Positions 2,773-7,752 of a stretch of DNA of 8,455 nucleotides are shown in pieces (within the stretch, counting starts at the first letter, position 1; each line of letters begins with the position of its first letter). Below the pieces are notes generated by a model, which had not been told where the DNA came from, made no database searches, and worked only from the letters and a program-made list of their open reading frames with translations. Location of the stretch: contig MHDQ01000110.1 of NCBI GenBank assembly GCA_001803565.1, forward strand, positions 1-8,455, written 5' to 3'. Position numbers and translations under genes: made by a program. The stretch is from Nitrospinae bacterium RIFCSPLOWO2_12_FULL_45_22. Lineage in GTDB: Bacteria; 2-12-FULL-45-22.

Positions 2773-3170
2773 ATGAAGATAAGGAGGGTAATAACTATTT
2801 GGGCTCCTTATATATATGCTGGAGATACTGGTAATATTCTCAATAAAAGACAAGAGAATATCGGCCATTATAGAAAAGATGGTGATAGGATTATAATCTA
2901 TGACCGGCAATGGAATAAGTTAAGTAAGGGTACCTGGAAAATTCTGGCAAGGATTGGGAAAGAGGCAGTATCTTTGATAGCTATTATAGAAGACTTGGCT
3001 ATATAGAAAAGAAGGGTGAACAAATAAGCATATTTGATAAGGAATGGAATAGAAAGGGTTACGCAATAGTTGATGATAAAGAGCAAGGATATTTTAACAA
3101 GGAATCTGAAAGGGTAGATTCAGATGAGCTTCTCAGGGAATTAGAAATTCTAATCATCAGGGATAAATGA
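2773..3170 (+). pseudogene. Two-repeat small beta-rich protein, frameshifted; coupled to GIY-YIG gene
   Basis: Frame 1 from ATG 2773 reads well to about 2940, then hits a stop at 3004-3006. A second frame then carries the coding signal to TGA 3168-3170. Adding one A to the A4 run at 2938-2941 joins them into about 132 residues. The join is supported by two matching repeats of about 36 residues: GNILNKRQENIGHYRKDGD then RIIIYDRQWN, and GSIFDSYYRRLGYIEKKGE then QISIFDKEWN. Shared positions are G-x-I, G-(H/Y), K-x-G, I-x-(Y/F)-D-x-x-W-N. The alternating pattern suggests short beta strands, like small beta-propeller or beta-flower repeat proteins, but I do not recognise the family. No strong ribosome site precedes 2773, and an in-frame TAA lies directly before it, so the true start may differ. 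The stop overlaps the next start (ATGA). Confidence 0.6.
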
Positions 3171-3754
3171 AGAAAAGAATAATAAATTATATTGGTAAAG
3201 TCGTTAAGAAAGCGTTTGAAGATTTTCTGTATAAGGTCCTTGCCGACTGGTTATCTAGATTTGACGAGGAAGAAGAGGAAAGCGAAGATAATAGCGACAT
3301 TGAGGAAAGATCTAGAGAACCAAAAAGTAATATGGAAGAGGTTAGAATTCAATGGGAAGGCCCTTATTTAATCGAAAGGGTTCCGAAATTAGATATTTCA
3401 GAGGAATTTGGTGTTTACATGATAACTAGACGATGGGGCACAAACAGAGAAAAGATTTTGTATATAGGTAAAACATATTGGCGAGATTTTAGGAGTCGAG
3501 TAAGGGAGCATCGAAGGGAGTGGTTAAATGAAGAAGTAGGAAATCTTAAAGTTAGATTAGGCATTATAAAACTTTCAAGGGGGAAAAAAATCTCTGTGCA
3601 AAGGGTTCAGGATATTGAAGCGTTATTAATTTATTGGTGTCAGCCAAGATATAACACCATATATAAAGATTCCTACAATGGAAGGGATTTAAAAATCATA
3701 AACGAGGGCAGACGAGGACCTATCGATAACATTATAACAACTGATGATATCTAA
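3167..3754 (+). CDS. GIY-YIG domain protein with N-terminal acidic linker
   Basis: This is a 195-residue protein. Residues 1-30 form a basic/hydrophobic helix, 32-52 a strongly acidic linker, and 80-165 a GIY-YIG domain. Visible family positions are GVY (82-84), YIG (99-101), Arg111 and His115 in RVREH, Glu151 in DIEALLIYW and Asn163 in PRYNT. Compared with I-TevI (Tyr, Tyr, Arg, His, Glu, Asn), the full catalytic set is kept, with the same four-residue Arg-His spacing. The expected activity is cutting one DNA strand or making a double cut; the DNA-binding part and target are unknown. Some stand-alone GIY-YIG proteins have unknown roles, so nuclease activity is inferred. The gene starts inside the stop of the repeat-protein gene (ATGA at 3167-3170), so the two probably work together. 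A possible 7-bp hairpin follows the stop. Confidence 0.75.
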   Translation: MKKRIINYIGKVVKKAFEDFLYKVLADWLSRFDEEEEESEDNSDIEERSREPKSNMEEVRIQWEGPYLIERVPKLDISEEFGVYMITRRWGTNREKILYIGKTYWRDFRSRVREHRREWLNEEVGNLKVRLGIIKLSRGKKISVQRVQDIEALLIYWCQPRYNTIYKDSYNGRDLKIINEGRRGPIDNIITTDDI

Positions 3755-3968: not shown

Positions 3969-4187
3969 ATGCGGCTAGCCGAAGGGATACAAAAACAGAT
4001 TGAGATATACCGCTTGATGACCGGCGCCCAGCGGCTTTGTATAGGGTTTGAACTTTACGAAACAGCTATTGCCATTTGCCATGCTGGTATTAAGCGACCG
4101 TATCCAGATTGGGCCGAAAGGGAAATAAAAGCAGAACTTGTTACGAGATTAAGAGATGCGGCAACTCGACAGGCTGTTACAGAATAG
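3969..4187 (+). CDS. Small hypothetical helical protein, 72 residues
   Basis: A short gene with a good ribosome site: AAGGA at 3957-3961, 7 bases before ATG 3969. The protein looks helical and charged: QKQIEIYRLMTGAQRLCIGF near the start, ELYETAIAICHAGIKRPYPD in the middle, and a basic C-terminal helix. The layout 'Q-x-E-x-Y-R-x-M-(T/S)-G-x-Q-R-L-x-I...ELYE-x-A...GI+...PD' recalls a family of small uncharacterised bacterial proteins of this size, usually genomically scattered and sometimes beside nucleotidyltransferase genes. No partner is adjacent here: gaps of about 210 and 150 bases separate it from its neighbours. It has no membrane segment, signal peptide or metal motif. Its function is unknown. 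Confidence 0.65.
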   Translation: MRLAEGIQKQIEIYRLMTGAQRLCIGFELYETAIAICHAGIKRPYPDWAEREIKAELVTRLRDAATRQAVTE

Positions 4188-4341: not shown

Positions 4342-6633
4342 ATGAGGAAATTTGTGGATCATTGGGCCAGGCAGAAGATGCTCCGGCAACTCTATGCCCA
4401 GGCCAATAAGGCATTCAAACAAAAGTCTTATAAGACCGAGGCCCCTTTGTTGGAAAAGATATTGGAGCTTGAACCGGACCGTTCGGATATAATCCAGCGG
4501 CTCGGCTCCCTGTACTATAACGAATTGGGGGATTTTGGGAAGGCTGCCGTTTACTTTGAGAAGATGAGAAAGATGTCTCACCCCCTGGAGCTATTCTTCC
4601 ACCTGGGATATTGCTATTACCAATGCAAAAATTTTTTGAAGGCCAGGGAAAATTTAGAAAAGTACCTTAAGAAGATCCAGGGGCAAAAAGACCGCCAGGC
4701 CAGAGAGCTCAGCAAGAGGGCGGAAGGGTTGCTGGAATCATGCAAGGAGCAACTCATCCGAGAGAAGGAGAGGAAGCTCCAGCTTAAAGAGGAGCGGGGG
4801 AAAGAAGCTGCAACCAAAAAGATGCCCCCTGTCCAAGAGGTAAGTTCAGAGCAAGAAAAAGCGACTCCCTTAACCCAACCAGCAAAAGAAGAGAGGGAGT
4901 GGCGGATTAAGATAACCTATCTCCCCCCAGAAGATAAAGCGACTATAGAGCTTCTCAAAAACTCCTCTTATGACAACCTTGCGAATTATCAACTGAGGCT
5001 CCAATATCATCACCTCACCCTCTTCAAGGGATATGATGAGCTAGTATGCCTGAACCAATTGCATAATGTAGAAAAGTTCTGGTACCAGATTGAGACGGTG
5101 AAAAAGGTCTTAAAGCAGTTTCGGGGCAGGGTACTGCTCTGTGATGAGGTGGGATTAGGAAAGACCATTGAGGCCGGGATGCTGATCAAGGAATACCTCT
5201 TAAGGGGGATGATAAAGAAGATACTTATTCTTACCCCCACCTCCCTGGTTTCTCAATGGAGGGAAGAACTCCTCACCAAGTTTGATCTATATTTTGCTAC
5301 TACCGATGATCCTGCTTTCAAACAATCTCCGGCAGAATTCTGGAAAAAGGATCAAATCATTGCCTCCCTGAATATCGCCAAATCCAGGCACCATTTCCAA
5401 TCTGTAATAGATAAAGAATACGACCTGGTTGTAGTAGATGAGGTGCACCACTTGAAGAACCGTCAGACCCTGAATTGGAAATTAGTGGATTCCTTAAAGA
5501 AGAGGTTCATCTTTCTCTTGAGCGCCACTCCGGTACAGAACAATCTGGTTGAGCTCTATAATCTATTGACCCTCTTAAAGCCCGGGATATTTAAGACCGA
5601 GAGCCATTTCAAGAAGGAGCATGTCAGGCGGGGTAACTCACGCCTCCCTTCTAATAGAGAGAAGCTCCAGGGGCTCTTGCGCGAGGTAATGATCAGGAAT
5701 AAGCGGAGCCTGGTGGATGTCAGGCTCCCTAAGAGATTCGCCCAAACTATCTTGATAGAGCCCTCAGAGTTAGAAAAGGGGGTCTATGAGAGGGTGAGTA
5801 ACTTTGTTCGGGAAAATTACCATAAAGATGGTAACATGAATAAATTTACCCTGAACCTGCTCCTAATGGAGGCGGGCAGTAGTCCTTTCGCCCTTAAAGA
5901 GTCCCTGAATAAATTGCTGGATCGGGGAAACATGGATATGTCCTCTGTCCTTAAACTGAAAGAGATCATCTCTCTTACCCAGGAGGTTTCTACATTGGAA
6001 AAAGGGAAACGGCTACTGGAGCTGGTTAAAAAGACGGGAGATAAAAAGATTGTATTCGCCCGCTACTATAAGACCCTGGCTTATATCGCCTCCCTCCTTG
6101 AAAGAGAGGGGATACCTTTTACCCAATTCCGGGGTGACCTGACCAACCTGGAAAAGGATAAGGCCCTTACCCAATTCCGTGATGGGGTTGATCTGCTCCT
6201 CTCTTCTGAATCGGGCGGAGAAGGTAGAAATATCCAGTTCTGTAATACCATGATAAATTATGATCTCCCCTGGAACCCTATGCTTATAGAACAGCGGATC
6301 GGCCGCATCCACCGCATCGGCCAGACCCGCGATATCTTCATCTTTAACCTCTCGGTAAAGGATACCATAGAGGATTACATCCTGAGGGTACTGGACCAGA
6401 AGATCAATATGTTCCAACTGGTAATCGGTGAGATAGAGAGCATCCTGGGGAATATGGAGACAGAAGAGGACTTTGAGGGGATTATTATGGATATATGGGT
6501 GAAGTCCAGCAACAGACAGGAACTGGAGGAACATTTTGATGACTTAGGAGAGAGACTGCTTGAGGCCAAAAGGAGCTATGAGAAGACCAAAGAGCTGGAT
6601 GAGACCCTCTTTGGCGATGATTATGAGGTATAG
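4342..6633 (+). CDS. TPR-SNF2 family (RapA/HepA-like) ATPase
   Basis: A 763-residue SF2 translocase. Residues about 15-116 form three TPR-like helical hairpins, followed by a charged linker to about 190. The ATPase core carries a Q-motif region around Q249, motif I DEVGLGKT (268-275), motif Ia LTPTSLVSQW (297-306), motif II DEVH (366-369) and motif III SATP (394-397). It continues with IVFARY (570-575), motif V SSESGGEGRNIQ (621-632) and motif VI QRIGRIHRIGQT (651-662). DEVH rather than DEAH, and RIHRIGQ, are typical of SNF2/RapA relatives, which move along double-stranded DNA and displace proteins rather than unwinding strands. All ATPase motifs look intact. The C-terminal ~100 residues are acidic and helical. 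The TPRs suggest protein-guided recruitment. The next gene begins directly after the stop, so the partner protein is probably part of the same complex. No nuclease domain is visible. Confidence 0.9.
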   Translation: MRKFVDHWARQKMLRQLYAQANKAFKQKSYKTEAPLLEKILELEPDRSDIIQRLGSLYYNELGDFGKAAVYFEKMRKMSHPLELFFHLGYCYYQCKNFLKARENLEKYLKKIQGQKDRQARELSKRAEGLLESCKEQLIREKERKLQLKEERGKEAATKKMPPVQEVSSEQEKATPLTQPAKEEREWRIKITYLPPEDKATIELLKNSSYDNLANYQLRLQYHHLTLFKGYDELVCLNQLHNVEKFWYQIETVKKVLKQFRGRVLLCDEVGLGKTIEAGMLIKEYLLRGMIKKILILTPTSLVSQWREELLTKFDLYFATTDDPAFKQSPAEFWKKDQIIASLNIAKSRHHFQSVIDKEYDLVVVDEVHHLKNRQTLNWKLVDSLKKRFIFLLSATPVQNNLVELYNLLTLLKPGIFKTESHFKKEHVRRGNSRLPSNREKLQGLLREVMIRNKRSLVDVRLPKRFAQTILIEPSELEKGVYERVSNFVRENYHKDGNMNKFTLNLLLMEAGSSPFALKESLNKLLDRGNMDMSSVLKLKEIISLTQEVSTLEKGKRLLELVKKTGDKKIVFARYYKTLAYIASLLEREGIPFTQFRGDLTNLEKDKALTQFRDGVDLLLSSESGGEGRNIQFCNTMINYDLPWNPMLIEQRIGRIHRIGQTRDIFIFNLSVKDTIEDYILRVLDQKINMFQLVIGEIESILGNMETEEDFEGIIMDIWVKSSNRQELEEHFDDLGERLLEAKRSYEKTKELDETLFGDDYEV

Positions 6634-7752
6634 ATGGAAGGGCTGATGAGCTTTTTGACCCTGGTACTGGAAAGCAATGATGTCCTGGTAGAACGAAAGG
6701 ATGGAGGCAGGATCGAGGCCCTTTTACCCAGGGATATAGCCACCTCCCTTGGTATCAGGGAATATCAAACCTTCTGCTTTGACTCCCAGGAGGCCCGTTC
6801 GGACGATCTGGTAGTTACCTATGATTCTGATCTCATAGATAGGCTTTCTGTATTGCTGGATAGAAAGGGCCAGCTTTCTCAGATTATCCTCCCCGGCGCT
6901 TTTATCAGGCGGGACCGGGCTGAGGAGTCCTTACGGAAGAGGCTGGTACTCAATAATGCCGTATATCGCATAAAAGACTTTGAAGAAAAAAGGGTCGCTT
7001 ATAGGGTCTTCAACCTCAAATATACCGCTATCTCTGATGAAAAGAGGGAAGATATAATAACGATAATTATCAATGAGGCTACCCTCTCTTTCCCAGAAGA
7101 GATGCTGGAGGTTATTGGCCCTTATTTGAGAGAAGGGCAGGAACCGAATGAGAGTGTTCAAATTCCGTCCTCTCGGCCTATAGAAGAGGTCTATAGGATG
7201 GCTTTGAGGGTTCTTAGGAGGAAGATTGGAGAGGAGTTATCTGATTTTGAACGGAGTATGAACCGCCGATTGAAGAAGGATATTTTAAGATTAGAAGATT
7301 ACTATGAAACTATAAAGGAGGAGATCCGTCAGAAGATTGCCAAAAAAAACCTGGAAGGAGAGCACAGAAAAGCAGAAGAGTCAAGGTTAAAGGCTACCGA
7401 GGTCGAACTGGAACGGCGTATAAAGGATCAGATAGAGAAGTATTCCGTTAAGGTAGAATCAAAGCTGATTAATGCCCTGAGGGTAATAGTTCCCTCTGCC
7501 CTGTTTAATGTTGAGCTACAACGCAAGAAGGAAAAAAGAGAGGTAAAGATAGGTTATAATCCTCTGCTTAAGAAGATAGAGTATCTGAGTTGTGAAGGGT
7601 GTTTGGCCAGGGGCTGCTATCTCTGTGATGACTTGCACGTCCTGTGCCAGAGATGCTTTTTTAAATGCCCGGGGTGCGAAAAAACCTTATGCCGTGTTTG
7701 TTATCCTGATAGTTGCCCCCGTTGCAAAGGTATAATTGACAGCGGATTGTAA
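6634..7752 (+). CDS. SNF2-partner protein: central charged helical region and C-terminal six-CxxC zinc cluster
   Basis: This 372-residue protein is encoded with no spacer after the SNF2 gene (TAG-ATG). GAGGT at 6625-6629 supports ATG 6634, while GGAAGGG at 6636-6642 leaves Met5 (6646) possible. Residues 1-165 look like a mixed alpha/beta domain. The piece RVFNLKYTAISDEKRED at 124-140 recalls segments I associate with C-terminal extensions of large SNF2/HelD-like proteins, so this may be a split-off part of such an ATPase; that is inference. Residues about 185-300 are long, highly charged helices, probably coiled coil. Residues 320-364 hold twelve cysteines as six CxxC pairs (320/323, 328/331, 338/341, 345/348, 353/356, 361/364), enough for about three zinc ions in a RING- or treble-clef-like array. 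No catalytic motif is seen. It is likely a DNA-, protein- or RNA-polymerase-binding subunit of the ATPase. I do not recognise a named family. Confidence 0.75.
   Translation: MEGLMSFLTLVLESNDVLVERKDGGRIEALLPRDIATSLGIREYQTFCFDSQEARSDDLVVTYDSDLIDRLSVLLDRKGQLSQIILPGAFIRRDRAEESLRKRLVLNNAVYRIKDFEEKRVAYRVFNLKYTAISDEKREDIITIIINEATLSFPEEMLEVIGPYLREGQEPNESVQIPSSRPIEEVYRMALRVLRRKIGEELSDFERSMNRRLKKDILRLEDYYETIKEEIRQKIAKKNLEGEHRKAEESRLKATEVELERRIKDQIEKYSVKVESKLINALRVIVPSALFNVELQRKKEKREVKIGYNPLLKKIEYLSCEGCLARGCYLCDDLHVLCQRCFFKCPGCEKTLCRVCYPDSCPRCKGIIDSGL

Follow-up and report, generated by a model that had tools for sequence, protein, structure and literature searches.

A two-gene SNF2 ATPase module whose partner protein resembles the C-terminal module of RapA

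Results

The window analysed here is an entire 8,455-base contig (MHDQ01000110.1) of Nitrospinae bacterium RIFCSPLOWO2_12_FULL_45_22, drawn from a metagenome-type assembly (GCA_001803565.1) of 3.67 Mb in 321 contigs. Its central feature is a pair of touching forward-strand genes that encode a SNF2-type ATPase and a partner protein with a cysteine-rich tail; the stop codon of the first (TAG, 6631-6633) directly abuts the start codon of the second (ATG at 6634). An earlier interpretation of the same letters, made without database searches (the sequence-only reading), had placed both open reading frames (ORFs) exactly and had correctly described the zero spacing, but its proposal of an undescribed system does not hold, since Bacillus YqhH falls within the SNF2 clade and the partner has homology both to YqhG, a named but functionally unexplained family, and to the C-terminal module of RapA, which has been characterised.

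The first protein matches SNF2-rel_dom and Helicase_C in Pfam (Table 1), and every SNF2 motif is present, including SATPVQNN at residue 394 and GGEGRN at residue 625, in agreement with the intact ATPase that had been claimed. The tetratricopeptide repeats (TPRs) claimed for its N-terminus are likewise real, though just under Pfam cut-offs, and this region, predicted to be all-helical in the read-through model described below, is missing from cyanobacterial SNF2 homologues and present in the window and some relatives. A tree of SNF2 proteins placed the window protein and Bacillus YqhH in one clade (support 0.92, with one long-branch extra member), apart from RapA and from DrmD of the DISARM system; the pattern of the post-helicase KINMFQLVIGE stretch was found in 46 of 97 sequences of the clade. 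Scores against RapA and DrmD models were nearly equal, and all fell far short of the curated cut-offs: 235.5 bits for the RapA equivalog NF003426 (cut-off 576), 210.4 and 234.6 bits for two DrmD models (610 and 950) and 193.4 bits for DpdE of the Dpd system (500). A Pfam search of the window proteins found neither of the RapA-specific domains (N-terminal, RapA_C), and we do not claim membership in the RapA equivalog.

Searched by sequence against Pfam, NCBIfam, PADLOC and the Protein Data Bank (PDB), the partner had no relative above cut-off. An AlphaFold2 model built from a 32-row alignment, from which plasmid-record rows were left out, reached a mean predicted local distance difference test (pLDDT) score of 90.7. 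When this model was compared with the PDB using Foldseek, the top four entries were all RapA (E 1.6e-6 to 5.1e-6, probability 1.00), and the next entry stood at E 0.39. VIA placed partner residues 1-288 on RapA 712-967, which lies behind the SNF2 core of RapA (Z 10, 234 residues, root-mean-square deviation (rmsd) of ~8 Å), while unrelated structures matched just the helical hairpin at 202-271. The published C-terminal domain of RapA and BrxHII consists of a sheet of five strands, with a pair of long helices inserted between the fourth and the fifth, and was described as having no other homologues (PMC12839542); the partner model has a layout of the same kind, with strands, long helices at 183-270 and a β-hairpin at 273-309, and the hairpin accounts for the charged helical middle noted in the sequence-only reading. 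No viral structure matched the model below E 0.001.

Profile-profile comparison agreed with the fold. The partner family aligned by hhalign with a profile of the C-terminal regions of eight RapA proteins at E 6e-6 (controls 0.38 or worse), partner residues 10-235 pairing with RapA ~730-944 (C-terminal columns 111-325 after motif VI), whereas the DrmD C-terminus gave no comparable match (best 0.015 over 48 columns). A search of PDB sequences with the family profile did not find RapA; the likeness is visible by fold and profile-profile comparison alone. Both genes share a reading frame, and translation past the TAG would yield one chain of 1136 residues, which was modelled with pLDDT 87 and a predicted template modelling score (pTM) of 0.56. 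The five best Foldseek matches to this chain were RapA over ~950 columns, with ~620 columns for the next match and mostly ~480-660 for the SNF2 proteins that follow, and VIA paired 725 residues between model positions 196-1052 and RapA 108-967 at 12.7 Å rmsd. The model and RapA thus agree in domain order and predicted folds, the placement of the domains not being reproduced, and the fold of the RapA C-terminal module is found behind the SNF2 core as a separate protein.

The partner is also related, distantly, to YqhG. The genes downstream of yqhH in Bacillus match Pfam YqhG (PF11079) at 1e-118 to 1e-127, and the protein encoded downstream is YqhG (E 1e-50 to 1e-127) across loci of Bacillus, Priestia, Neobacillus and Paenibacillus. 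By hhalign, 20 window-type partners aligned over ~240 columns with six Bacillus-type YqhG proteins (E 2.5e-10) and with eleven broader ones (E 4.1e-18), reversed or column-shuffled controls giving 0.013 or worse. Intermediates in halophilic Bacilli bridge the two types (E 3e-59), and a hidden Markov model (HMM) of the window-type partner directly matches most YqhG proteins. The window partner itself had no hmmscan match to PF11079 up to E 1 (gathering cut-off 25 bits); on these alignments it is a distant YqhG homologue outside the curated family.

The twelve C-terminal cysteines counted in the sequence-only reading are all there (a further one is C48). In an alignment of 20 rows, 19 sequences retain C320, and C353, C356 and C361 are invariant among the 11 long enough to include them; this conservation makes the tail probably one or more zinc sites. 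It is not a defining feature, as had been supposed, being absent from cyanobacterial and Bacillus partners, and partner size and tail vary widely across the family (260 to >700 aa). Both TPRs and cysteine tails are lineage-specific additions to a motor/partner pair. Three actinobacterial partners of 650-730 aa carry large C-terminal additions, and the sole one scanned (L080) had no Pfam match.

That the two genes form a conserved module, as originally claimed, is borne out by their distribution. A tblastn search of plasmids yielded six partner homologues (four on Nostocales or Oscillatoriales plasmids, one each in Chondrocystis and Rhodovastum), with a SNF2 gene directly upstream in 6/6. Among 386 genomes spread over the domain, the partner profile matched 17, the window's own included. 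SNF2 profile scores left a clear gap: the YqhH-like clade, present in 26 genomes in addition to the window's, scored ≥421 bits and everything else ≤267 bits. In the remaining 385 genomes the partner occurred in 16, the SNF2 gene in 26 and both in 14 (Fisher p 8e-17, for genomes that are not independent). The only two partner matches without a SNF2 gene were a fragment and a weak match; three genomes had the genes non-adjacent, with the SNF2 gene elsewhere in the genome at E 1e-143 or better; and at least five of the 12 SNF2-positive genomes initially scored as partner-negative (G053, G062, G255, G326 and G327) have a partner of divergent sequence, or YqhG, at the SNF2 gene.

We also examined 80 loci found independently with the SNF2 protein as query, which are the best-scoring part of the matches and over half of which are from Bacilli; they come from Desulfobacterota-like, cyanobacterial, alphaproteobacterial, acidobacterial, planctomycete, actinobacterial, Bacillota and further genomes, and from Haloarcula. 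A partner or YqhG gene lay immediately 3' of the SNF2 gene in 74 of them (71 by ORF coordinates and three with over-long ORF starts). In three, all cyanobacterial, it lay 0.5-1.1 kb downstream, in one it was absent, and two were at contig ends where adjacency is not assessable. The possibility that homologues would rarely be adjacent in other genomes, which would have counted against the proposal of a module, is not what these loci show. Trees of the two proteins mirrored each other (r 0.91, against at most 0.23 after shuffling), which is what inheritance as a pair would produce, with the common descent of the genomes contributing. In Haloarcula argentinensis (L100, 7863-10761) the SNF2 gene is accompanied by a 397-aa partner (HMM E 2e-10), so by sequence the pair reaches Archaea. 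The Terrihalobacillus partner gene is in two pieces (L056, 9636-12395; pieces at 9636-10052 and 11736-12395) with another ORF between them, probably an interruption by insertion.

Clustering of neighbouring genes showed no family beyond the pair that recurs across phyla; conserved neighbours were limited to Bacilli and other related loci, and in Bacilli the pair occupies one fixed chromosomal neighbourhood. For the window and the six plasmid copies the suggestion of a mobile accessory module is apt, but most chromosomal loci do not conform to it.

Table 1. Features of the SNF2 gene and its partner gene in the window
Feature	Position	Strand	Basis
SNF2/RapA-type ATPase gene, 763 aa, YqhH-clade motor	4342..6633	+	SNF2-rel_dom 4.6e-37, Helicase_C 2.1e-23; split-clade tree
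N-terminal TPR/helical region, residues 1-157, apparently in place of the RapA N-terminal domain	4342..4812	+	TPR_19 5.8e-5, below curated cut-off; modelled helices 3-157
Walker A DEVGLGKT, residues 268-275	5143..5166	+	motif intact; conserved in alignments
Walker B / motif II DEVH, residues 366-369	5437..5448	+	motif intact
Motif VI QRIGRIHRIGQ, residues 651-661	6292..6324	+	motif intact
Post-helicase stretch KINMFQLVIGE, residues 687-697	6400..6432	+	well conserved near the window's branch
GAGGT, candidate Shine-Dalgarno-like site for the partner gene, within the SNF2 gene	6625..6629	+	read from sequence
Partner gene, 372 aa; YqhG-like, putative RapA C-terminal module as a separate protein	6634..7752	+	hhalign to YqhG and RapA C-terminus; Foldseek to RapA
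Partner N-terminal α/β part, residues 1-147	6634..7074	+	model pLDDT mostly >90; start of the RapA 712-967 match
Predicted helical hairpin insert, residues 183-270	7180..7443	+	model; similar two-helix insert in RapA/BrxHII C-terminal domains (PMC12839542)
Predicted closing β-hairpin, residues 273-309	7450..7560	+	model
12-cysteine probable zinc tail, residues 320-364, variable in family	7591..7725	+	sequence; model confidence low from ~350

The pair is not alone among gene remnants in the window, as had been thought. Upstream lie apparently intact nucleotidyltransferase (NTP_transf_2, 2.7e-10) and HEPN (5e-15) genes at 1965-2707, which overlap by 4 bases and resemble an MNT/HEPN toxin-antitoxin pair, and a gene at 3167-3754 for a 195-aa protein that has an acidic N-terminus and weakly matches the N-terminal part of UvrC (E 0.0037), possibly a GIY-YIG nuclease. 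A 72-aa ORF at 3969-4187 weakly resembles an Rv0078B-related antitoxin family (4.4e-5, under the curated cut-off). Further upstream, a radical SAM/SPASM gene (349-1347) precedes two overlapping frames (1379-1924) that, judged by eye, resemble a membrane fatty-acid hydroxylase and appear to be a broken gene.

Discussion

RapA is a double-stranded DNA translocase that binds near the RNA exit channel of RNA polymerase and clears stalled polymerase by backtracking (PMC8666675, PMC9303389). Residue D744 in its Spacer contacts the zinc-binding domain of the polymerase β' subunit, and its N-terminal domain restrains the ATPase until polymerase opens it (PMC8501970). D744 falls inside the region matched by the partner; in a split form, gene 1 would therefore supply the motor and gene 2 the polymerase-touching module. 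We consider it likely, with a probability of roughly two in three, that the two genes are the RapA motor and its C-terminal module encoded separately, and that they use ATP to clear or recycle RNA polymerase that has stalled. The SNF2 ATPase would track along double-stranded DNA, and the YqhG-family protein, corresponding to the post-helicase module of RapA (the end of the Spacer plus the C-terminal domain), would be co-translated and assemble with it into one complex. By analogy with RapA, the motor would sit on DNA behind RNA polymerase while the partner touches the enzyme near the RNA exit channel, such that ATP-driven translocation would back up a stalled or post-termination polymerase and dislodge it from the DNA. 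The TPRs may replace the N-terminal regulatory domain of RapA, and the cysteine-rich tail probably provides an additional contact, whether with polymerase, nucleic acid or another protein. Of the functions offered in the sequence-only reading, transcription recycling is the one favoured, and phage defence found no support.

Several observations weigh against this interpretation. By sequence score the SNF2 core is no closer to RapA than to DrmD, and it forms its own clade rather than nesting within RapA, so the argument that the pair works like RapA is carried by the partner fold and by collinearity. The structural matches to RapA are at high rmsd (~8-20 Å) and do not reproduce relative domain placement, and the interface between the SNF2 protein and its partner is putative, the read-through model having a pTM of 0.56. 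Since BrxHII shares the C-terminal fold of RapA (PMC12839542), the fold alone is no proof of an RNA polymerase target. An interaction of YqhH with RNA polymerase is asserted in PMC7385302 by citation, not demonstrated there; cells lacking hepA (yqhH) showed no suppression of PcrA depletion. Insertions in yqhG, mfd and topA were recovered in one B. subtilis screen of extracellular DNA and colonies (PMC3487849), which counts in favour of polymerase recycling, with the limit that yqhG borders sinIR (PMC6123443) and the yqhG insertion was possibly polar on sinIR. We found no biochemistry on any YqhG-like protein in the literature.

The Bacillus phenotypes bear also on a different proposal, that of a DNA-repair or protein-DNA remodelling machine that strips proteins from DNA or flags lesions for nucleotide excision repair, with RNA polymerase not its main target. 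The product of yqhH has ATPase activity, and a B. thuringiensis yqhH null is sensitive to ultraviolet (UV) light, with lower survival at 30 min (PMC10054049). This phenotype is also among the published hints in favour of polymerase recycling, but for either proposal it is limited in that it is modest and slightly reversed at 60 min. In one locus (L027, 8337-10766) a UvrA-family gene (809 aa, UvrA_inter 4.7e-20) directly follows the partner with a 1-base overlap, but no other of the ~100 loci has a uvrA-like gene directly adjoining, and the structural match is to RapA, a polymerase-bound protein. We regard a primary role in repair as unlikely. More doubtful still is that the pair is a module for defence against phages or plasmids, comparable to the SNF2 helicases of DISARM and type 3 BREX, which have the RapA-like architecture in common. 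PADLOC SNF2 models match the motor (DrmD 3.7e-69, BrxHI/BrxHII 6e-65), BrxHII has the same C-terminal fold, six copies of the pair are on plasmids, and a toxin-antitoxin-like gene pair is close to the copy in the window. These points are offset by the wide margin by which the DrmD, DpdE and RapA cut-offs were missed, and by the content of the window, a contig of merely 8.4 kb, whose ORFs include no methylase, DrmA or DrmB of DISARM and no BrxC, PglZ, methylase or BrxHII of type 3 BREX. PADLOC models among the neighbours were scattered, none matching more than 2 of 77 neighbour proteins, and no defence models were found beside the halophile copies. Phage records gave no match. Viral contigs were scanned narrowly, by patterns from single sequences that can find only close relatives, and none of the 14 pattern matches was confirmed. 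No genome with BrxHII was found in the genome sample. Without recurrent defence neighbours or viral matches, and with yqhG listed in no clostridia and in all bacilli (PMC3533761), in which the pair keeps to one chromosomal neighbourhood, phage defence is not supported.

Least probable of all, in our view, is that the partner regulates or inhibits the SNF2 motor, or serves as its adaptor to another machine such as a Ycf46/DUF1257 module, and that its likeness to the RapA tail is one of fold only. Related AAA ATPase genes, which we take to be possibly Ycf46-like, lie upstream of the pair in three loci (L168, L037 and L098), DUF1257 and DUF2997 genes lie downstream in others (L034, L035 and L038/L074), and the partner's length and tail vary widely. 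A functional link with the plastid-conserved Ycf35/Ycf46 genes is possible. Such neighbours are a minority, however, and profile comparison and fold both point to the RapA C-terminus.

If the two-subunit interpretation is true, YqhG, a protein of unexplained function in all Bacilli, gains a place in the transcription machinery. YqhH has been called HepA/RapA-like on its motor alone, though it is without the C-terminal half of RapA; with the missing half as the neighbouring gene, the simple prediction is that YqhH plus YqhG equals RapA. B. subtilis uses HelD for polymerase recycling. A fold that was reported in 2026 to be exclusive to RapA/BrxHII-type helicases would, on the model, occur here as a free-standing protein, and a multi-phylum pair annotated merely as "SNF2-related protein" and "hypothetical protein" acquires a putative role. 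RapA itself was present in 8 of 290 genomes, and the split pair in none of those 8, which is compatible with alternative forms of one function, the numbers being too few for significance. Whether RapA-type recycling is an ancient and widespread two-subunit function, with a YqhG-type module as near-obligate partner across bacterial phyla and in a haloarchaeon and the single-chain gammaproteobacterial RapA as one special form, we judge to be evenly balanced.

In the searchable literature, outside which most subscription papers lie, we found YqhG nowhere described as a RapA-like module, nor the pair as a complex. Transcription of yqhH is controlled by sigma-F, and the gene was a transposon-sequencing candidate for sporulation timing (PMC4703394). 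The "yqhG" of uropathogenic Escherichia coli and methicillin-resistant Staphylococcus aureus (MRSA) is probably a different protein of the same name, the MRSA one being described as periplasmic.

Among known systems, DrmD of DISARM and BrxHII of type 3 BREX share a related SNF2 core with the window protein, and BrxHII has, by published description, RapA-type C-terminal domains (PMC12839542); both differ in being single large proteins within multi-gene defence loci, and the C-terminus of DrmD does not align with the partner. RapA (HepA) of E. coli has the SNF2 motor and the matching module in the same order, but within a single gene, with its own N-terminal domain where the window protein has TPRs, without the cysteine-rich tail and with a SNF2 core from a separate clade. 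The Bacillus YqhH-YqhG pair differs in that YqhH (~560 aa) is without the N-terminal TPR region and YqhG (~265 aa) is without the cysteine tail, but it shares with the window pair the gene order, the near-zero spacing, the SNF2 clade and homologous partners.

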